Positions 34,137-44,200 of a stretch of 64,000 bases of DNA are shown in pieces. The notes beneath the pieces are model-generated. The model did not search any database. It saw nothing but the letters and a program-made list of their open reading frames with translations, and was not told the origin of the DNA. A program made the translations under genes and the position numbers. The stretch is taken from the NCBI GenBank assembly GCA_017450965.1, contig JAFSSQ010000061.1, forward strand, positions 1-64,000, read 5' to 3'. This stretch comes from Clostridia bacterium. Its GTDB lineage: Bacteria > Bacillota > Clostridia > Oscillospirales > CAG-272. Each line of letters opens with the position of its first letter. Position 1 is the first letter of the stretch.

Positions 34137-34918
34137 AGCTTCTTCTCGAACTCTCGTTCGTCGGGACGGATTTTTGCGGCTGGCAGGTCCAGCCGAACGG
34201 CCGCACCGTGCAGGGGGTGATGACGGAAACGTCCTCCCGGCTGTTTGGCTGCGACTCTCTCGTGACCGGATGCAGCCGCACCGACAGCGGCGTCCACGCG
34301 CTCTCCTTTTTTTGCACGGTGGAAAACGGACTTGACGGATGCCCGATCCCGCCGGAGCGGATCCCGAAGGCGTACGCCGCTCTCCTGCCGCCGGACGTTT
34401 CGGTCCGCCGCGCCGTTTTGGTCGGAGCGGATTTCCACCCGCGCTACTGCGCGATCGAAAAAGAATACGTTTATCGCGTCCGCACCGCGCCTTTTCCAGA
34501 TCCGTTCGGGTACGGCCGGGAATACTTTTTCCCCGCGCCGCTGACCGAACGGGGGGTCGAAAAGATGCGGGAGACGGCCGCCGCCCTCTGCGGAACGCAC
34601 GATTTTTCCGCCTTTATGGCGGCGGGATCCAAGATCACCGACCCCGTGCGCACCGTTTTTTCCTGCGAGGTACGGCGCGCGCCGGACGGGCAGACGCTGG
34701 AGATCGAAGCGGCGGCGGACGGCTTTCTCTACCACATGGTCCGGATCATCAGCGGAACGCTCCTCGAGATCGGGCGGGGCGCGCGGGAGCCGGAGTCCGT
34801 TGCCGCGTTACTGAAAAACCGGGACAGAAGCGAGGCTGGGCCCACCGCGCCCGCCTGCGGACTGTATCTGAAACGGGTGAAATACCCCGAAGGGATCCTA
34901 CCCCCGAAGAACGTTTGA
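34133..34918 (+). CDS. truA: tRNA pseudouridine synthase A
   Basis: TruA converts U38-U40 of tRNA anticodon arms to pseudouridine. From the ATG at 34133 the protein is 261 residues, the normal length, opening LLLELSFVGTDFCGWQVQPNGRTVQG. The catalytic aspartate is in GCSRTDSGVHAL. The frame stays open far upstream into ecfT, but only this start, four bases overlapping the ecfT stop, gives a normal TruA. The order ecfA1-ecfA2-ecfT-truA is conserved in Firmicutes. Confidence 0.95.
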   Translation: MKLLLELSFVGTDFCGWQVQPNGRTVQGVMTETSSRLFGCDSLVTGCSRTDSGVHALSFFCTVENGLDGCPIPPERIPKAYAALLPPDVSVRRAVLVGADFHPRYCAIEKEYVYRVRTAPFPDPFGYGREYFFPAPLTERGVEKMRETAAALCGTHDFSAFMAAGSKITDPVRTVFSCEVRRAPDGQTLEIEAAADGFLYHMVRIISGTLLEIGRGAREPESVAALLKNRDRSEAGPTAPACGLYLKRVKYPEGILPPKNV

Positions 34919-34935
34919 AGAAAGGAGCGAAGACC

Positions 34936-36240
34936 GTGAAAGACGACCGCAGCCGCCGGCGCGGGGCCGGGGCAAAAGACGAACCCCTTTCCGCCGTTCT
35001 GCCGGATCAAGACGCGGCGCTTCCCGCAAATCTGCCGCAAAACGGCGGGGAAGACGATCTTGAGGATCTTCGCGCCAAGTTCGGCGGCGCCCGGCCGGGC
35101 GAGTATTATACCAAGGTTTCCAAACGCTATCGCGGCGGCAAGATCTTTCTCATCCTTCTTTTGATCGCCCTGATCCTTCTGATCTTCGTCTTCGGCGCCG
35201 GCAGCTTTACCTACGCCAATCTCCGCTATCTCGCGCGCAACCTCGGCGAGGCGACGCTCGGCGGCGGGGAACGCGCCGAAGAGATCGCGATCGGAGCGGA
35301 CGGAAACGCCGATTTTGCCGTTTTCAAAGGGAAGATCGCCGTGGCGGGCGAGTCCGGCGTTTCACTTTACCGCGCCTCCGGCAAAGAGCTTTATACGGAA
35401 AAGATCGCTCTCGGCGCGCCGCGCCTGATCGCCTCCGACCGCTATTTTCTCCTCTGGAGCGCCGGTGAGAACTCCTACGGCGTCTTCAACGCCGTCTCCC
35501 TTCTCAAGACCGCGACGCTCGACTACCCGATCTACGGAGCCGCCTTGGCGGAGAACGGCAGTTACGCCCTGATCACCAAGACCCGCCTGTATCCTTCCTC
35601 CGTTTTCCTCTACGACCGGAATTTCAAACTGAAAACGGAGTATAATAAGTCTGACGCTTATTATTCCTCGGTCGCCTTTTCGGAAGACGGGAAGACGATC
35701 GCGCTCCTCTCCTTTTCCGTGCAAAGCGGCTTTTACAGCACGCTGCTTGAGGTCTACGGGATCGGGGAGACGGAGCCGACCTTTACCTGCCGTTTTGCAA
35801 AAGAGTTTCCCATCGCCTGCTTTCTCGCCTCAAACGGAAGGGCGGTGCTCGTGACCGACGCCGCGTATTCCTCTTACGACGCGGAGGGGAAGGAAATCTT
35901 CCGGCGGGAGTATAACGGTACGCCGGTCAAAACGCTTTTCTCGGACGGCTCGCTCGCTTTGCTCTTTACCGAGCAAAACCGGCGCGGGACACGGGTGCTT
36001 CTCTCCGCACTGACGGGAGAAACGCTCTTGGACGCTTACGCCGAGCCGGACGTCTCGGACGCCGTCTTCTATCAGGGCAGGATCGCCGTTCTCTCTCTCG
36101 TAACGGAGATCTTCGATCCCGCGACCGGGGAGAGGACCGTTCTGGAAAAAGAAAAAGGCGCCGTCGCGCTGCTGGCCGACGGGGACGCGCTTTACTCTTG
36201 CTCGAAGGAACGCATCGCGCTCCTTTTGCCGAAAGAATAA
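34936..36240 (+). CDS. DUF5711-type membrane-anchored beta-propeller protein
   Basis: From a GTG at 34936, preceded by AAAGGAGCG, this protein has 434 residues. A charged cytoplasmic tail of about 68 residues precedes one membrane helix (about 69-93, KIFLILLLIALILLIFVF). The exterior part is made of repeated beta blades (such as SYALITKTRLYPSSVFLYDR and SDAYYSSVAFSEDGKTIALL), resembling the DUF5711 family of clostridial proteins. Its function is unknown. The upstream frame is open into truA but out of register with it, so longer starts are rejected. It is 17 bases downstream of truA. Confidence 0.75.
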   Translation: MKDDRSRRRGAGAKDEPLSAVLPDQDAALPANLPQNGGEDDLEDLRAKFGGARPGEYYTKVSKRYRGGKIFLILLLIALILLIFVFGAGSFTYANLRYLARNLGEATLGGGERAEEIAIGADGNADFAVFKGKIAVAGESGVSLYRASGKELYTEKIALGAPRLIASDRYFLLWSAGENSYGVFNAVSLLKTATLDYPIYGAALAENGSYALITKTRLYPSSVFLYDRNFKLKTEYNKSDAYYSSVAFSEDGKTIALLSFSVQSGFYSTLLEVYGIGETEPTFTCRFAKEFPIACFLASNGRAVLVTDAAYSSYDAEGKEIFRREYNGTPVKTLFSDGSLALLFTEQNRRGTRVLLSALTGETLLDAYAEPDVSDAVFYQGRIAVLSLVTEIFDPATGERTVLEKEKGAVALLADGDALYSCSKERIALLLPKE

Positions 36241-36266
36241 TTCCGATCTGCGGAAAGGGGAAACAA

Positions 36267-36986
36267 ATGGGTATTTTTGTTGATATTTTTTTCGTTGTCG
36301 CTGTTCTGATCATCATCATCGTCTGCACGGCGCGCGGGTTTGTGAAAACGATGATCCAGCTTTTTTCCTTCATTCTCTCCCTTGCGATCGCCATCCTGTT
36401 CTGTTCGCAGCTTGCGGGCGTGATCGCGGACAAGTGGCTCGACGATCCCATCACGGGCAAGGTGGAAGAAAAGATCGGTTCTCTCGCGCAGAAGGCGGAC
36501 GGCGTAACCTACGATCTCTCCGCGCTTTTCGGGGAAAAACAGCCCGAGTTTTTCGATCTTCTTACGCGTTACAGCGCGGATAAGGCCGCGCTGGAAGAAG
36601 ATTACGGGACGATCACGGACGGAACGGAAAGTACCGTGCGCGATCTTTCCCGGCGCATTTCCGCGCCGATCGTCCGGATCCTTTCCTACGTGATCGCGTT
36701 TGCCGTTCTCTTCATCGGATCGGCGCTCGTTCTCCTGATCATTTCCGCGATCCTCAACTCGGTGGCAAAGCTCCCGGTTCTCAAACAACTCAACAGCTTT
36801 CTCGGTTTTCTCTGCGGGCTCTTGCTTGCGGCCGCCTTCGTGTTCGTTTTCGCCACGCTGGCCGTCTATCTTTTTGATAAGCTCGCCGTCGTGTATCCCG
36901 ATACCATTCCGACGGATCTGAAAGAAGATTCTTTCTTCCTCAAGAACTGTTCCGATTTCAGAGTGCTGACAAGGTTGTTTTCCTGA
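36267..36986 (+). CDS. CvpA-family membrane protein
   Basis: This 239-residue integral membrane protein has about four helices, with the family-type opening IFFVVAVLIIIIVCTARGFVKTMIQLFSFILSLAIAILF and a second hydrophobic pair at about 140-215. The loop between them is hydrophilic. CvpA-family proteins have been linked to colicin V production, envelope integrity and biofilm; the molecular role is unclear. The start at 36267 has GGAAAGGGG before it. Confidence 0.85.
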   Translation: MGIFVDIFFVVAVLIIIIVCTARGFVKTMIQLFSFILSLAIAILFCSQLAGVIADKWLDDPITGKVEEKIGSLAQKADGVTYDLSALFGEKQPEFFDLLTRYSADKAALEEDYGTITDGTESTVRDLSRRISAPIVRILSYVIAFAVLFIGSALVLLIISAILNSVAKLPVLKQLNSFLGFLCGLLLAAAFVFVFATLAVYLFDKLAVVYPDTIPTDLKEDSFFLKNCSDFRVLTRLFS

Positions 36987-36998
36987 CAGAGGTTTTTT

Positions 36999-37583
36999 AT
37001 GAACGTCAAAAATCTTCCCAATTTGCTCTCCTGTCTGCGGCTGATCGCCGCGATCGTGTTCCCCTTTCTCTTTTTCTCCCTCTATCCCAATACCGTTCCC
37101 GCGATGATCCTTTTCGTGTTCGCGGGTCTGACGGACGTTCTGGACGGGTATCTTGCGCGCCGGAACGGATGGGTCAGCGATCTCGGAAAGATCCTGGATC
37201 CCTTGGCCGACAAACTGATGCAGGCCGCCGTGCTGCTCTCGCTTACGGTCAAGGGGATCATTCCGCTCTGGATCACCGTCCTGTATCTTTTCAAGGAGCT
37301 CTTGATGCTCAGCGGCGCGACCGTCGTTCTCAAAACCGCCAAAACGGTCGTGGTGAGCCGATGGTGCGGCAAGCTGGCCGCTTTCGTCTTTTACGCCGCG
37401 ATGGTCGTCCTCGGACTTTTCGGCGAGCGGCTGGGGGCCGGATGGGTCCTTGCGATCTCTCTTACCACGCTTGCCGCCGCGCTGCTTGCTTTGATCGTTT
37501 ATCTTCCCGACTTTTTCCGGTACGCGGGAAAGGACCCCGATCCGGCGGAAAAAACCGGAGAGCATCAGGCGGAGAGCCGGTAA
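36999..37583 (+). CDS. pgsA: CDP-diacylglycerol-glycerol-3-phosphate phosphatidyltransferase-type enzyme
   Basis: A CDP-alcohol phosphatidyltransferase of 194 residues with about six membrane helices. The active-site motif DG-x2-AR-x8-G-x3-D-x3-D is complete (DGYLARRNGWVSDLGKILDPLAD). PgsA makes phosphatidylglycerol phosphate, the precursor of phosphatidylglycerol and cardiolipin. The opening NVKNLPNLLSCLRLIAA fits PgsA better than phosphatidylserine synthase, but the alcohol substrate is not proved by sequence. Confidence 0.88.
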   Translation: MNVKNLPNLLSCLRLIAAIVFPFLFFSLYPNTVPAMILFVFAGLTDVLDGYLARRNGWVSDLGKILDPLADKLMQAAVLLSLTVKGIIPLWITVLYLFKELLMLSGATVVLKTAKTVVVSRWCGKLAAFVFYAAMVVLGLFGERLGAGWVLAISLTTLAAALLALIVYLPDFFRYAGKDPDPAEKTGEHQAESR

Positions 37584-37636: not shown

Positions 37637-39922
37637 ATGCAAATGTTGTGTTCCCGCTGCCACAAGCGGCTTGCCGTCGTGTTCGTCACGAAGATGGAAA
37701 AAGGCGAAACGGTCAACGAGGGCTTTTGCCTCCCCTGCGCGAAAGAGCTCGGCATCAAGCCGATCAACGATATGCTCAGCAATATGGGGATCGGCGATCA
37801 GGACGTGGAACGGCTGACCGGCGACGTGGAGAATATGATGAACGCCATGCTCCCCTCGGAGGACGAGGAGGACGGCGGTGCTCCCGCGATCGACATTCCC
37901 CGGATCTTCAGCCAGGGGCCGTTTTCGGGAGGGGCGAAGCCTTCCTCCGCGGCGCCGGGCAGGGAGAAAAAGAAAAAAGAAGAAAAATACAAGTATCTGG
38001 CCGCCTACTGCCAGAATCTGACCGCGAAGGCGGCGGAAGGAAAGCTCGACCGGATCGTCGGGCGGGAGCGGGAGCTGGAGCGCGTGATCCAGATCCTCTG
38101 CCGCCGGCAAAAGAACAATCCCTGCCTGATCGGCGAGCCGGGCGTCGGCAAAACCGCGATCGCGGAAGCGCTCGCGCAGCGGATCGCCGCGGGCGAGGTC
38201 CCGTATATGATGCAGGATAAGCAGATCTATCTCGTCGATCTGACCGCCCTTGTCGCCGGCACGCAGTTCAGGGGGCAGTTTGAGTCCCGCGTGCTCGGAC
38301 TGATCAATGATGTCAAGACGGCAGGCAACGTGATCCTCGTCATCGACGAGGTGCACAACATCGCCAGCGCCGGCGACGCCGAGGGAAGCATGAACGCCGC
38401 CAATATCATGAAACCGGCGCTCTCCCGCGGGGACATCCGGGTCATCGGCGCCACCACGCTCAACGAGTACCGCAAGTATATCGAAAAGGATACGGCGCTC
38501 GAGCGCCGCTTCCAGCCCGTTATGGTAAACGAACCTTCCGTTGCGGAAACGGAGAAAATGCTGGCGGGCATCAAGCATTATTACGAAGATTATCACGGGA
38601 TCCGCATCCCCGATTCCGTTCTCCGGAACGCCGTTTCACTTTCCGAGCGCTATATCACCGACCGCTACCTCCCCGACAAGGCCATCGACCTGATCGACGA
38701 GGCGGCCTCGCATATCTCCCTTTCCTCCGCGGTGATCAACGATCTGCGCCGCAAGAGGGAAGAACAGCGTAAGCTCGGAGCGGAAAAGGAGCGGCTCGAG
38801 GCGCTGCCGGACACGAGCGAGGCGGAGCAGGAGAAAAAGTACGCCGCGCTCGCGGATCTCAAAACCCGCGACGCGAAGCTGACGGAGGAGCTGGCGGAGC
38901 TGGAGGAAAAAGCGTCCGCGGTCTTTCTTACCGTGACGGATCTGGCCGACGTGATCGAGATCTGGACGGGGATCCCCGCCTCCTCGATCAGCGAGGACGA
39001 GTTTGAAAAGATCGACCGGCTGGAAGAAAATCTGAAAAAGCGGATCATCGGCCAGGACGAGGCGATCTCTGCCGTCGCGCGCGCCGTCAAGCGCAGCCGG
39101 GCGGGCGTTTCCTACAAAAGAAAGCCCGTTTCCTTCATCTTCGCCGGGCCGACCGGCGTGGGGAAGACCGAGCTTGTCAAGCAGCTTGCCGCGCAGCTTT
39201 TCGACTCGCCCGAGACTCTCATCCGGCTCGATATGTCCGAGTTTATGGAAAAGCACTCCGTCTCCAAGATCATCGGCGCGCCTCCCGGCTACGTCGGGTA
39301 TGACGAGGCGGGGCAGCTCACCGAAAAGATCCGCCGCCGTCCTTACAGCGTGGTGCTGTTCGACGAGATCGAAAAGGCGCACAGGGACGTATAGAACGTT
39401 CTTCTCCAGATCCTCGACGACGGAAAGATCACCGACGCGCACGGCAAGACCGTCAATTTCGAGAACACCCTGATCGTGATGACGACCAACGCGGGCGCGG
39501 AGCGCTCCGCCGGGATCACCGGCTTTTCCGCGAGCGAGGAGCAGACCTCCTCCGCCCGGACCATGAAGGCGCTGGAGAGCTTTCTCCGTCCGGAGTTTAT
39601 CAACCGCGTGGACGAGATCATCACCTTCCGGTCGCTGACCAAAGAGGATTTCTCCGCGATCTCCGTGATCATGCTCGATCAGCTCGCGGAGGCGCTCGCG
39701 GAGCGCGGAATCCGTTTCCGTTACTCTCCCGCCGCCGCGGCGTATATCGGAGAGAACTCGTATTCCTCCCGTTTCGGCGCGCGCAATATGCGTCGCTTCA
39801 TCCAGGTCCGCGTGGAGGACCCCCTTGCCAACGCGATCGTGGCCGCGCGGGAGAAAAAGATCGCCGAGGCGTTTCTGGATGCGGCGGAAGGCGCCCTGTC
39901 CGTCACCTGTACCGAATCCTGA
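37637..39922 (+). pseudogene. clpE: ClpE-type AAA+ ATPase gene interrupted by one in-frame amber codon
   Basis: The full frame would encode 761 residues. The N-terminus has a zinc finger C5-x2-C8-x22-C31-x2-C34, the pattern of Gram-positive ClpE. The first AAA+ domain has GEPGVGKTA, the second GPTGVGKTE, pore loop [13 protein letters not shown] and Walker [10 protein letters not shown]. Codon 586 (39392-39394) is TAG, where relatives have Tyr or Phe (DV-Y/F-N-LLQ). The same frame then continues for 176 codons with intact sensor and C-terminal motifs (MTTNAGAE, a GITGF loop like the ClpP-docking loop, LRPEFINRVDEII). The truncated product of 585 residues would lack sensor 1, the ClpP loop and the lid of the second ring. 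Sequencing error, a fresh nonsense mutation or suppression are all possible. Confidence 0.85.
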
Positions 39923-39937
39923 CAAAAGAGGCGTGAT

Positions 39938-41992
39938 ATGACCGAGGGAATCAGCACAAAAACGGCGGCGGAGGTCGCGCGTCACTACGCTACCTCCGAT
40001 ACCGACGGGCTGACGTCAAAGGAAGCCGCCAAGCGGCTCAAGTTTTTCGGACAAAACAAAATCTACGACGCGCTGCCGGAGAGGCGGGTCCGCGCCCTGG
40101 CGGGGATCTTCTTCTCGCCTTCCGGCATCCTCTTTCTCACCGCGGTCGTCTGCGGGATGGCCGCCGGCGTGAGCGGAGCGCCGGCCGGCGCGATCCTCTA
40201 CGCCGCCGGCGCGCTGGCGCTGGCGTTCATCCGCGCGCGCTCGCAAAAGATTTTTGCGGCGCTCCGGGAGTGCGGGATCCCGCGCGCCAAGATCATTCGC
40301 GACGGACGCCCGAGGATCGTCGACAGCCGCCGGCTCGTTCCGGGGGATCTCGTCCTTTTTGCGGCGGGAGACGTCGTTTCGGCGGATTGCCGCATCGTCT
40401 ACGAAAACGGCCTCCGCGTGCAGGAAACGGCAGGCGAGGACGGTTATCGCGTGACGGAAAAGACCGCGTCGGAATGTCCCGAGGCGATCGCGCCGTCCGA
40501 GATGCGGAATATGCTTTTTGCCAATTCCACGGTCCTGGCGGGCGGCGCCCGCGCGATCGTGACCGATACCGGCCGGGATACGCTGGTTTTAACCGACTCC
40601 GGCGGGGAGCCGGTAGCGCTCCCCGGGTCGGAGACTTCCGTTCTCCTTGAGAGCGTGAAAAAGGAGGGAAGAGTCCGGTCTCTGATCGGCGCCGCCCTCT
40701 TGCTTCTCTCGGCGCTCGGGATCCTCTTCTTCCGGCAGCAGGATCTGCTCTCGGATCTTCTTCTCGCGGTCTCCGCCCTGATCTTCGCCGTATGCGGTGC
40801 CCGCGATACCCTCTTTCTCTTTGCCGCGGCGTCCGCGTTTGACTTTGCCGCAACGGACAAAAGGGGAAAAGCGCTGATCAAAAATCCGGGCGCTGTCGAC
40901 GGGCTGGCGTATACCGACGCCGTCGTGATCGGGGAAGCGGTCGCGGCGGGACACGCCGCCGCGCTGAAGAAAAAGTTTTCCCCTTACGGGATCCGCGTTT
41001 ACGTCACCTGTTCGCCGGAGAGCGCGGATGCGCTCGCGGCGCAGGCGGGCGGCGTGACGGCGTATTCGCCGTACGAGGCCGCGGAAAAAGAGGGAAGCGC
41101 CCCCGTCGCCGTGATCTGCCGTACGCCGGCGGAACGCACGAAGCTTGTAACCCTGCTCACCGAGGCGGGAGCGCGGGTCGCTTCCGTCGCTTCCACGCAG
41201 GGGCATCTCGGGATGCTGACGGCATCCGCCGTTTCCTTCTGCTGTACGCCGATCACGGGGAAGTACCGGACGTTGACCGACTTTTCGCTGGAAGATATCG
41301 ACCGCAGCGCCGGTAACGAATCGATGATGAAAAACGCGGACGTGCTGTGCGATCCGACGCCGGACGCCTGCCTTTCCGCCGTTTCCGCGGTCCGCGCTCT
41401 CACAAAAAAGCTGACCGCGATCGGACGCGCGATCGACGCCGCCGTTCTGGCCGCCTTCTTCCTCGTTTTCGCGTCCCTTGTGTCGCCTTACCGGTTTCTG
41501 ACGGTTCCCGGACTGCTTGCCGCCTTCTTCCCGGTTCTTCTTGCCGGCACGGCGGCGCTGGCGGGACTGCGCGGGCGTGATACGCGGCCCGAGCCGGCGT
41601 CTGTCACCCGCCGCGCCCGCTGGCAGGGCGCCGTTTCCTCCGTTCTTTGGATTGCCCTCTTTCTCTTCACCGTATTTCTCTCCGACAAAAACGGCTATTC
41701 CGTTCTCTCCTTCCTTTCCGGTGCGGGCGTGCTCTCGCTCTGGTTTTATATCGGCTTTTTCTTCCTCTTCTTTTTGCCGGACGGCGTTGCGGGGAAGGTC
41801 TGGATCAGCCGCTTCATCCCTTTGCTTTCCGCCGCCGTTTTTTCCCTTGCGGCGTTTTTCCTCCCTTTTGCCGGTGCGCTCTTTTCCGCTTCCGTCAGCG
41901 CGGCGGGTATGCTTCTCGCTTTGCTTCCCGCGTTTGCCGCTCCGCTGATGACGGCAATCAGTATCTCCCTTTTTACCAAAATACAAAAATAA
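39938..41992 (+). CDS. P-type-ATPase-like membrane protein lacking catalytic residues (pseudoenzyme)
   Basis: The 684-residue protein follows the plan of a P2-type cation ATPase. An N-terminal cation-ATPase segment (GLTSKEAAKRLKFFGQNKI, 24-42) is followed by two helices and an actuator-like domain (RLVPGDLVLFAAGDVVSADCRIV, 132-154), two further helices (about 246-302), a soluble domain (about 305-500) and a block of about six helices. Every catalytic motif is altered: TGES reads AGED (165-168), the DKTGT position reads IGEAV after TDAVV (326-335), TGD reads TCS (357-359), and GDGxND reads QGHLGM (420-425). The nucleotide-binding domain is missing. It starts 15 bases after clpE. It cannot pump by the usual cycle; a binding or regulatory role is inferred. 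Confidence 0.75.
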   Translation: MTEGISTKTAAEVARHYATSDTDGLTSKEAAKRLKFFGQNKIYDALPERRVRALAGIFFSPSGILFLTAVVCGMAAGVSGAPAGAILYAAGALALAFIRARSQKIFAALRECGIPRAKIIRDGRPRIVDSRRLVPGDLVLFAAGDVVSADCRIVYENGLRVQETAGEDGYRVTEKTASECPEAIAPSEMRNMLFANSTVLAGGARAIVTDTGRDTLVLTDSGGEPVALPGSETSVLLESVKKEGRVRSLIGAALLLLSALGILFFRQQDLLSDLLLAVSALIFAVCGARDTLFLFAAASAFDFAATDKRGKALIKNPGAVDGLAYTDAVVIGEAVAAGHAAALKKKFSPYGIRVYVTCSPESADALAAQAGGVTAYSPYEAAEKEGSAPVAVICRTPAERTKLVTLLTEAGARVASVASTQGHLGMLTASAVSFCCTPITGKYRTLTDFSLEDIDRSAGNESMMKNADVLCDPTPDACLSAVSAVRALTKKLTAIGRAIDAAVLAAFFLVFASLVSPYRFLTVPGLLAAFFPVLLAGTAALAGLRGRDTRPEPASVTRRARWQGAVSSVLWIALFLFTVFLSDKNGYSVLSFLSGAGVLSLWFYIGFFFLFFLPDGVAGKVWISRFIPLLSAAVFSLAAFFLPFAGALFSASVSAAGMLLALLPAFAAPLMTAISISLFTKIQK

Positions 41993-42028
41993 TACACCAA
42001 ACCGTACATCAGAAAGGATCCAAGACTT

Positions 42029-42877
42029 ATGGCTGAAGAAAAACAGGGCTGCACCCACGACTGTTCCACCTGCGGACAAGCGTGCAGCAGCCGGCAGCAG
42101 GCGGGACCGAACGAGTTCGCCGCGCCCGCTAACGAGTACAGCAACGTAAAGAACGTGATCGCCGTGATCAGCGGCAAGGGAGGCGTGGGGAAGTCTCTCG
42201 TGACCGCTCTGCTCGCCGTCAATATGCGCCGGCGCGGCTACAGCGTCGCCGTTCTGGACGCGGATATCACGGGCCCTTCCATGCCGAAGGCGTTCGGCGT
42301 TTCGGGCGACGTGACCGGTCAGGACGGGCAGATCTTTCCGCTCGTTTCCAAAACGGGGATCGAGATGATGAGCGTCAATCTCCTGCTGGAGGATGAGACC
42401 AAGCCGGTCGTGTGGCGCGGTCCGGTGATCGCCGGCACCGTCAAACAGTTCTGGACGGACGTTGTCTGGAACGACGTGGACTATCTCTTCGTGGATATGC
42501 CTCCCGGAACCGGCGACGTTCCGCTGACCGTGTTTCAGAGCCTGCCCGTGACCGGCGCGATCGTGGTAACGAGTCCCCAGGATCTTGTTTCCATGATCGT
42601 CAAAAAGTCCGTCAACATGGCCAATCTGATGAAGATCCCGGTCGTCGGCCTGGTCGAAAATATGAGCGGCGTCGTCTGCCCGAAGTGCGGGGAGAGGATC
42701 GACGTTTTCGGCGAGAGCCACGCAAAAGAAACCGCCGACGAAATGGGGATCCCGCTTCTCGCGCAGATCCCGCTTGACCCCCGGCTTGCCAAGCTGTGCG
42801 ACAAGGGGATCATCGAACTTTACGAAAACGATTATCTGGACCGGGCGGCGGACGCGCTGGAAAAGCAGAACGCCTGA
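42029..42877 (+). CDS. Mrp/NBP35-family Fe-S cluster carrier ATPase
   Basis: This 282-residue P-loop protein of the Mrp/ApbC/NBP35 family has a deviant Walker A GKGGVGKS near residue 50, switch motif LDADITGPSMPKAFGV, VDMPPGTGD, and a C-terminal CPKC pair used to bind a bridging Fe-S cluster. An additional N-terminal cysteine cluster (CTHDCSTCGQACSS) resembles that of eukaryotic-type NBP35. It likely carries Fe-S clusters to apo-proteins. It follows the P-type-like gene by 36 bases with an AGAAAGGA site. Confidence 0.93.
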   Translation: MAEEKQGCTHDCSTCGQACSSRQQAGPNEFAAPANEYSNVKNVIAVISGKGGVGKSLVTALLAVNMRRRGYSVAVLDADITGPSMPKAFGVSGDVTGQDGQIFPLVSKTGIEMMSVNLLLEDETKPVVWRGPVIAGTVKQFWTDVVWNDVDYLFVDMPPGTGDVPLTVFQSLPVTGAIVVTSPQDLVSMIVKKSVNMANLMKIPVVGLVENMSGVVCPKCGERIDVFGESHAKETADEMGIPLLAQIPLDPRLAKLCDKGIIELYENDYLDRAADALEKQNA

Positions 42878-42901
42878 CCCGATCCGGAGAAAGGATCCCG
42901 T

Positions 42902-44200
42902 ATGCTCCCGATCACGGAAATCGCAAAACAAATGAAGGCCGCCGCGCCGTTTGTCGCCGCGATGGAGGCAAACCGGCGCAGCGAGGCGCTTCTCGGCGCC
43001 GCCGCTCTCCTGCGTGAAAATGCGGAAGAGATTTTCCGGGAAAACGAAAAGGATATGGCGCTCTCCGACTCTCTGGCCCTCCCGCTGAAAAAGCGGCTCC
43101 GTTTTGACCGTCCGAAGCTGGAGACGGTCTGCCGGGGGCTGGAGGAGCTTGCCGCCCTTCCCGATCCCGTCGGGACCGTTACGCTGCGGCGGGAACTTGA
43201 CCGCGACCTGGTCCTCTCCCGCATCAGCGTGCCGATCGGCGTGATCGGCGTCGTCTTCGAGTCCCGCCCGGACGCGCTCGTCCAGATCTCCGGCCTTTGC
43301 TTTCGGAGCGGGAACTGCGCGATCCTCAAAGGAGGAAGCGAGGCGCTCCATACCAACCGTATCCTCTTTTCACTGATGCGGCAGGCGTCGCTTTCCGCCG
43401 GCTTTCCGGAGGCGGCGTACGCTCTGGCGGAGACGCGCGAGGAGATCGGCGAACTGCTTGCCTGCGACGCCTGGGTCGATCTTCTCATCCCGCGGGGATC
43501 GAACGCCTTTGTCCGCTACATCATGGATCACACCCGCATCCCCGTCCTGGGGCACGCCGCCGGCGTCTGCCATATCTACGTGGACGCCGCCGCCGATCTT
43601 GCCCGCGCGGCAAAGATCGTTCTTGACGCGAAGACCCAGTATCCCGCCGCCTGCAATGCGGTGGAAACGCTGCTCGTCGCCCGGCCGGTCGCTCCCGTGT
43701 TTTTCGCTATCCTTACCGGGCGGATCAAAGCCTTTGAAGCGGAAAACGGAAAAAAGATCCGCCTTCTCGGAACGCCGGAGGCCGCCGCGATCCTTTCCTG
43801 CGAGCAGGCGGGGGAAGACGACTTCGGCCATGAGTTTTCCGATCTCACGCTCGCCGTAAAGCTCGTCGCGGACGTTGACGAGGCGATCGACCATATCAAC
43901 CGCTTCGGCAGTCATCACACCGACGCGATCCTGACCGAGGACGACGTGGCGGCCGAGCGCTTTTTCCGCCTTGTGGATTCCGCCGGCGTCTACCGCAACT
44001 GCTCCACCCGCTTTGCCGACGGTTACCGCTATGGCTTCGGCGCGGAGGTGGGGATCAGCACCTCGAAGATCCACGCAAGAGGACCCGTCGGTGTGGAAGG
44101 TCTTCTTACCTACAAGTATCTGATCGAAGGAACAGGGCAAACCGTGGGTGAATACGCAAACGGGAGCCGGTCGTTTCATTTCCGCGATCTGCCGTGCTGA
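42902..44200 (+). CDS. proA: gamma-glutamyl phosphate reductase
   Basis: ProA reduces gamma-glutamyl phosphate with NADPH to glutamate semialdehyde in proline synthesis. The 432-residue protein shows VPIGVIGVVFESRPDALVQI, the cofactor region NCAILKGGSEALHTN, and the catalytic cysteine in TQYPAACNAVETLL. proB is not adjacent. It sits 24 bases after the Mrp gene with a GGAGAAAGGA site, so it may be part of the same long transcript. Confidence 0.96.
   Translation: MLPITEIAKQMKAAAPFVAAMEANRRSEALLGAAALLRENAEEIFRENEKDMALSDSLALPLKKRLRFDRPKLETVCRGLEELAALPDPVGTVTLRRELDRDLVLSRISVPIGVIGVVFESRPDALVQISGLCFRSGNCAILKGGSEALHTNRILFSLMRQASLSAGFPEAAYALAETREEIGELLACDAWVDLLIPRGSNAFVRYIMDHTRIPVLGHAAGVCHIYVDAAADLARAAKIVLDAKTQYPAACNAVETLLVARPVAPVFFAILTGRIKAFEAENGKKIRLLGTPEAAAILSCEQAGEDDFGHEFSDLTLAVKLVADVDEAIDHINRFGSHHTDAILTEDDVAAERFFRLVDSAGVYRNCSTRFADGYRYGFGAEVGISTSKIHARGPVGVEGLLTYKYLIEGTGQTVGEYANGSRSFHFRDLPC

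Follow-up and report, generated by a model that had tools for sequence, protein, structure and literature searches.

In uncultured Clostridia an ion pump has apparently become a membrane protein that no longer pumps. The gene in question, of 684 codons, is located directly behind clpE in the window, the whole stretch of 64,000 nucleotides that was analysed. We propose that its product belongs to an old P2-type pseudoenzyme family, and that this membrane protein does not pump but has a role tied to ClpE, most likely by offering its actuator (A) domain as a docking platform; we give this reading a probability of roughly 0.4. That the proteins of this family do not pump is inferred, there being no phosphoenzyme or transport data, and we hold it with high confidence. 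The step that makes the protein an adaptor of ClpE is tentative, as it is inferred from operon linkage and weak co-loss without interaction data.

A P2A-type ATPase homologue without catalytic motifs

The features of the gene, all on the forward strand, are the following.

39926-39931, +, ribosome-binding-site-like AAGAGG, 6 nt 5' of the ATG (sequence; pattern match with 1 mismatch)
39938-41992, +, gene of the dead P2-type ATPase homologue, a pseudoenzyme of 684 aa (open reading frame, Pfam, genus orthologues, dN/dS)
39953-40150, +, Cation_ATPase_N segment, residues 6-71 (Pfam PF00690, E 4e-9)
40274-40633, +, A domain, residues 113-232, TGES loop lost (conservation, dN/dS)
40667-40837, +, membrane segments M3-M4, with PEGL of M4 changed to CGAR, residues 286-289 (hydropathy, alignment)
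40868-41392, +, P-domain remnant, residues 311-485, without a nucleotide-binding domain (alignment to relatives with a degenerate N domain; partial model)
40931-40945, +, position of the phosphorylation motif DKTGT, reading GEAVA, residues 332-336 (alignment columns)
41192-41206, +, position of the hinge motif GDGxND, reading STQGH, residues 419-423 (alignment columns)
41411-41977, +, hydrophobic block M5-M10, residues 492-680, with the M5/M6 cation-site residues lost (hydropathy, alignment columns)

An earlier, sequence-only reading had described 684 codons without a stop or a frameshift, and the open reading frame 39938-41992 matches this exactly. Pfam matched the protein only to Cation_ATPase_N (residues 6-71) and E1-E2_ATPase (residues 115-285, E 4e-16), both above the gathering cut-offs; the scan gave neither a hydrolase nor a nucleotide-binding match. 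A phmmer search against solved P2A pumps aligned only residues 7-327 (LMCA1, lmo0841, E 2.5e-19), stopping near residue 327, where the phosphorylation loop is expected to begin; past this point each of three elements, phosphorylation loop, hinge and nucleotide-binding domain, is altered or missing. A profile of the window genus alone likewise aligned over residues 7-327 only. A profile of the wider dead family, the relatives without catalytic motifs described below, aligned with LMCA1 from end to end (profile positions 4-907, E 8e-124), with the phosphorylation and hinge loops in register, and E1-E2_ATPase was matched in all 19 members scanned. By hydropathy, the 684-aa protein has about ten membrane segments, arranged as in P2 pumps: two pairs followed by a block of about six. 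At the level of sequence, the P-type plan claimed in the sequence-only reading is thus borne out by Pfam, phmmer, hydropathy and the LMCA1 profile alignment, with the restriction that the window protein by itself aligns over residues 7-327 only. By homology, as judged from sequence, the protein is a member of the P2A group of the P-type ATPase superfamily. We regard the long antisense open reading frame at 40589-43351 as an artefact and attribute it to the GC richness of the coding sequence.

Structure prediction added little. The AlphaFold2 model of the full-length protein, made from a three-sequence alignment, had a pLDDT of 36. A model of the P-domain piece reached 56 overall and contained an alternating strand-helix core (block pLDDT ~70-89), and a fold search of this model against the PDB gave no significant match.

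Alignment to the relatives defined what became of each motif. The loss of DKTGT and of GDGxND that had been read from the letters is upheld, and the registers had to be corrected: the DKTGT position reads GEAVA, one residue on from the proposed IGEAV, and the hinge position reads STQGH rather than QGHLGM, placing S419 and H423 at the first and second Asp, respectively. The TGES loop of the A domain aligns with AGEDG, in agreement with the AGED proposed. The nucleotide-binding domain had been called absent, which is correct for the window genus, where KGA is missing with it; most relatives, of ~900 aa, keep a degenerate one.

The catalytic loss is shared by a clade

The dead protein is present in six of six genomes of the window genus, none with motifs or stops (orthologue identities of 93, 75, 37 and 36%, plus one partial copy at a contig edge). 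Many relatives beyond the genus likewise lack DKTGT and GDGxND. Profile A1, built from 19 motif-less relatives outside the window genus, gave strong matches in about half of the 198 genomes of the family and in 25 of 50 genomes of the order's second family. Profile score alone was rejected as a marker of the dead family: active class-level matches reach 482-526 bits, and many dead members score lower. Since the score fails to separate dead from active proteins, the sequence behind clpE was read directly, and membership was defined by position behind clpE together with motif loss. In this way 75 P-type homologues were found directly behind clpE in the two families, one locus per genome except for two in genome G016; they include 14 of 18 loci from genomes initially scored negative by the profile. 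The two loci of G016 (L053 and L056) are similar clpE and dead-pump pairs on two contigs, perhaps a duplication or mixed strains.

DKTGT was found in none of the 75, and GDGxND is absent from every member read. The best class-level matches outside the order (12 checked) all carry DKTGT and GDGxND, and 11 also TGES. The branch separating dead from active sequences had 100% SH-aLRT support in a tree of 76 rows and again in a tree of 54 rows that included wider active pumps and an outgroup. The outgroup joins the active pumps; the dead sequences are therefore a single clade that divides by family, as expected, as far as these trees go, if they arose once and were passed on vertically. The trees were quick and some branches are long, leaving inner placements unsure, and the genomes are mostly metagenome drafts. 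The nucleotide-binding domain is absent in the window genus and a few others, among them G021, and the second tree groups the window genus with G021 at low support. Judging habitat by the labels of public relatives (uncultured Clostridia and uncultured Ruminococcus), the genomes that carry the dead family are those of uncultured Clostridia from gut and rumen, spread over dozens of genera.

Some members depart from the usual length or sequence. Longer dead pumps of 1057-1265 aa were seen at L074, L072 and L051 (G014, G240 and G054), that of G054 ending in a long acidic, Asp/Glu-rich tail. The open reading frame behind clpE in G205 (L148:7319-9424) scores 27 bits with the family profile and may be an extreme member or something else, so that its membership is unsure.

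Remodelling of the membrane core

Among 61 aligned members, an Asp occupies the phosphorylation column in three, and the Pro of M4 is kept in none. The other core positions were counted over 56 aligned rows, leaving out the window genus, in which all cation-site and core polar residues of M4, M5 and M6 are lost. Of these rows, 49 retain the M4 acid and 42 the M6 Asp, while Arg has replaced the M5 Glu in 40 and Gly the M6 Asn in 55; the Glu of TGES remains in nine and the KGA Gly of the degenerate N domain in 47. The same new residues are fixed in the transmembrane core, which decay would not do, hence we regard the change as remodelling. The dead family as a whole lacks, as shown at the level of sequence, the residues needed for an aspartyl phosphate and a pump cycle.

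Isolated motif parts do survive (DK in G365 and G361; Asp and TGEA in G019) and could be taken to mean that these proteins still pump through unusual chemistry, with a migrated acceptor residue. We find this barely credible, as the phosphorylation Asp and the first hinge Asp were never found together (0 of 61 aligned members) and the window genus is entirely without a nucleotide-binding domain. A passive channel or facilitator, in which the pump scaffold is now a gated pore with no need of ATP, would suit the intact ten-segment membrane block and the M4 and M6 acids, which are mostly kept. However, the M5 Arg facing these two acids argues for a closed, salt-bridged core, and the M4, M5 and M6 core residues are missing from the window genus; we consider such a pore very improbable.

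Purifying selection in the window genus is strongest on the actuator domain

Pairwise dN/dS between the window protein and its two nearest genus relatives was ~0.15 and ~0.20. By region, the A domain is the most constrained part of the protein, with values of 0.02 and 0.07 for the two relatives as compared with 0.12-0.23 elsewhere, and its fold residues R121, G136, D137, D150, R152 and G202 were kept in all members sampled. Purifying selection therefore acts, within the window genus, on a protein without catalytic motifs. Selection was measured inside this genus only; with that restriction, the dead pumps qualify as a pseudoenzyme family, having catalytic loss fixed throughout a clade that purifying selection maintains. 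Over the dead family most of the protein evolves fast, with end branches often near 1 change per site, as would be expected of a weakly constrained sequence; this counts against our preferred reading.

The long branches, together with the absence of the gene behind clpE in ~10 genomes of the family and the extreme divergence of the G205 copy (profile score 27), are what could be expected of a dead paralogue drifting out slowly and retained only through useful operon neighbours. Against such a passenger stand the 75 copies without an active one among them, the low dN/dS of the A domain (0.02-0.07) and the conservation of both replacements and gene order across two families, and we think it highly unlikely. 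A lone decayed pseudogene among DKTGT-bearing homologues, the outcome that would have refuted the sequence-only reading, is excluded by the absence of DKTGT from all 75 loci, the supported dead clade and purifying selection in the genus. The selection for a non-pumping role suggested in that reading is well supported; which of its three options, regulator, sensor or scaffold, applies is not settled. Of the checks it had proposed, a profile search traced homologues to two families of the order, dN/dS indicated purifying selection, and the homologues keep the same neighbours, with clpE adjacency and the upstream order conserved.

The dead-pump gene is linked to clpE

The neighbouring genes, on the same strand, are listed below.

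34339-36240, +, gene of a DUF5711 membrane protein in the same operon; the listed open reading frame is probably over-long at its 5' end (synteny; PF18975 in the G003 orthologue)
36198-36986, +, cvpA-like gene in the same operon, with a probable start near 36267 (homology to the G003 CvpA reference, which matches Pfam Colicin_V)
37637-39922, +, clpE, with an N-terminal CxxC..CxxC, two AAA+ modules and one in-frame TAG (Pfam AAA_2, AAA_lid_9, ClpB_D2-small)
42029-42877, +, gene of an Mrp/NBP35-type P-loop ATPase, directly downstream of the dead pump (Pfam PF10609, synteny)

Between cvpA and clpE lies an open reading frame (36999-37583) that resembles, by eye, a CDP-alcohol phosphatidyltransferase. 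The AAGAGG sequence preceding the dead-pump gene begins ~4 nt past the clpE stop, and for this reason the two genes are probably co-transcribed; chance matches to such a Shine-Dalgarno-like pattern are also frequent. The placement of the gene downstream of an interrupted clpE is as originally described, and the interruption proved to be a single in-frame TAG at 39392-39394, so that a frameshifted clpE was rejected. The closest relative (G002) has TTG there, and intact clpE products in relatives are of 761 aa; the TAG could represent a true nonsense mutation, a difference between strains or a mistake in the assembly.

The order ecfA-ecfA-ecfT-truA-DUF5711-cvpA-clpE-dead pump was found at almost all loci that extend far enough to reveal it, and in 60 of the 75 loci the dead-pump gene lies -30 to +60 nt from clpE. 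The Mrp/NBP35-type gene adjoins the dead pump in part of the family only. Adjacency to clpE, which the sequence-only reading had noted merely as a matter of neighbourhood, is the most constant feature of the dead family. The converse does not hold: clpE occurs without a dead pump behind it in ~10 genomes of the window's family, and unrelated genes follow it in 10 genomes sampled from other families or, within the second family, from other genera, indicating that ClpE does not need the dead pump. In G182, one of the genomes without a dead pump, an open reading frame resembling by eye a HAD-type phosphatase directly follows clpE (L139:7305-7937). In G035, G185 and G199 we detected neither ClpE, the only match being ClpC-like, nor a dead pump, which is a weak signal of co-loss. 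A search of the open-access literature on ClpE with CvpA found nothing.

Taken alone, the operon linkage can be accounted for by co-expression, which counts against the ClpE step. A rival reading is a non-pumping membrane sensor. An ion, a lipid or a nucleotide would bind to the remodelled core, with its M4 acid, M5 Arg and M6 acid, or to the cytosolic domains, the A domain would pass the signal on, and the clpE linkage would reflect shared stress regulation only. Such a protein would explain the family-specific polar residues conserved in the membrane core and the constraint on the A domain, and the degenerate N domain of many relatives, with its KGA Gly in 47 of 56, might still bind a ligand. 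We nevertheless see it as rather unlikely, because in the window genus, where the gene is still selected, neither the N domain nor any polar residue of the core remains, and an output partner is not known.

If the dead protein served to regulate an active P-type pump of its own cell, it would have a precedent in inactive paralogues that activate an active relative, such as the trypanosomatid AdoMetDC prozyme (PMC5201418). All six window-genus genomes also encode a second, longer P-type homologue, and that of the window genome, its one other homologue (P2A pump G000:C23), has TGES, DKTGT and GDGxND. However, genus g117 (3/3 draft genomes) has the dead pump and no active P2A pump that we could find, genus g26 (3/3) has it with only weak matches to pumps of another type, and the dead gene is linked to clpE rather than to a pump gene. 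Since g117 keeps the dead protein without a detected P2A pump, the protein is not simply a subunit of such a pump; the dead-only genera disfavour a prozyme-type partnership, which we judge improbable.

A proposed role at the membrane

The docking platform tied to ClpE remains our preferred reading. A catalytically dead P2-type family would have arisen once in this Clostridia order, directly behind clpE, and would have been inherited together with clpE thereafter. As inferred from homology, its members would be ten-helix membrane proteins whose A domain and remodelled P domain lie on the cytosolic side. In most members the M5 Arg is inferred to face the retained M4 and M6 acids in place of the bound cation, and owing to this the pump core is probably held in a single conformation. 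The A domain, being the most constrained part, may serve as a docking surface, whose likeliest client would be the co-encoded AAA+ unfoldase ClpE, which would thereby come to the membrane next to CvpA and the DUF5711 protein. In its most specific form, a single conversion of a pump into a membrane-embedded AAA+ adaptor whose A domain recruits ClpE beside these two proteins, the proposal is a somewhat unlikely one. Were recruitment of ClpE by the A domain true, it would add a new type of Clp system, one tethered to the membrane.

Few pumps have been studied as thoroughly as the P-type ATPases, and we found no earlier description, in the open-access literature, of a whole P-type clade without catalysis; the claim of the sequence-only reading that no such family had been described held in the literature searched. 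As a natural set in which some members have a nucleotide-binding domain and others do not, the dead pumps separate the reasons for retaining the fold from the needs of catalysis. Their link to clpE offers a concrete, testable partner and could reveal a route by which Clp unfoldases are brought to the membrane. Such genes will probably be labelled cation-transporting ATPases by automated pipelines, a warning for annotation.

Comparison with known systems

The dead family resembles the P2A Ca2+-ATPases (LMCA1/lmo0841, SERCA) in domain order, in full-length profile alignment and in the fold residues of the A domain. It differs from them in the loss of DKTGT, the hinge, TGES and PEGL, in the replacement of cation-site residues and, in the window genus, in the absence of a nucleotide-binding domain.

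Known pseudoenzymes, including iRhoms, prozymes and pseudokinases, act as regulators or scaffolds (PMC3149277, PMC5201418, PMC8141879). They share with the dead pumps a conserved clade in which the fold is kept and catalysis lost, whereas the papers found describe no P-type ATPase among such pseudoenzymes; a search of open-access literature for a pseudoenzyme or pseudo-ATPase among P-type ATPases found none. For CATP-1 of C. elegans, which keeps its phosphorylation Asp D409, a pump-independent function was proposed (PMC11631496), and scaffold roles were suggested for P4 ATPases (PMC10654040). The suggested untying of function from transport is common to these proteins and the dead family, but CATP-1 retains D409 and the P4 proteins are flippases, whereas the dead family is a whole clade without the motifs.

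The adaptors MecA and McsB of Clp/AAA+ unfoldases are soluble proteins, in contrast to the ten-helix dead pump, whose interaction with ClpE is inferred. If the adaptor reading is right, the dead pump would have its working principle in common with MecA and McsB.
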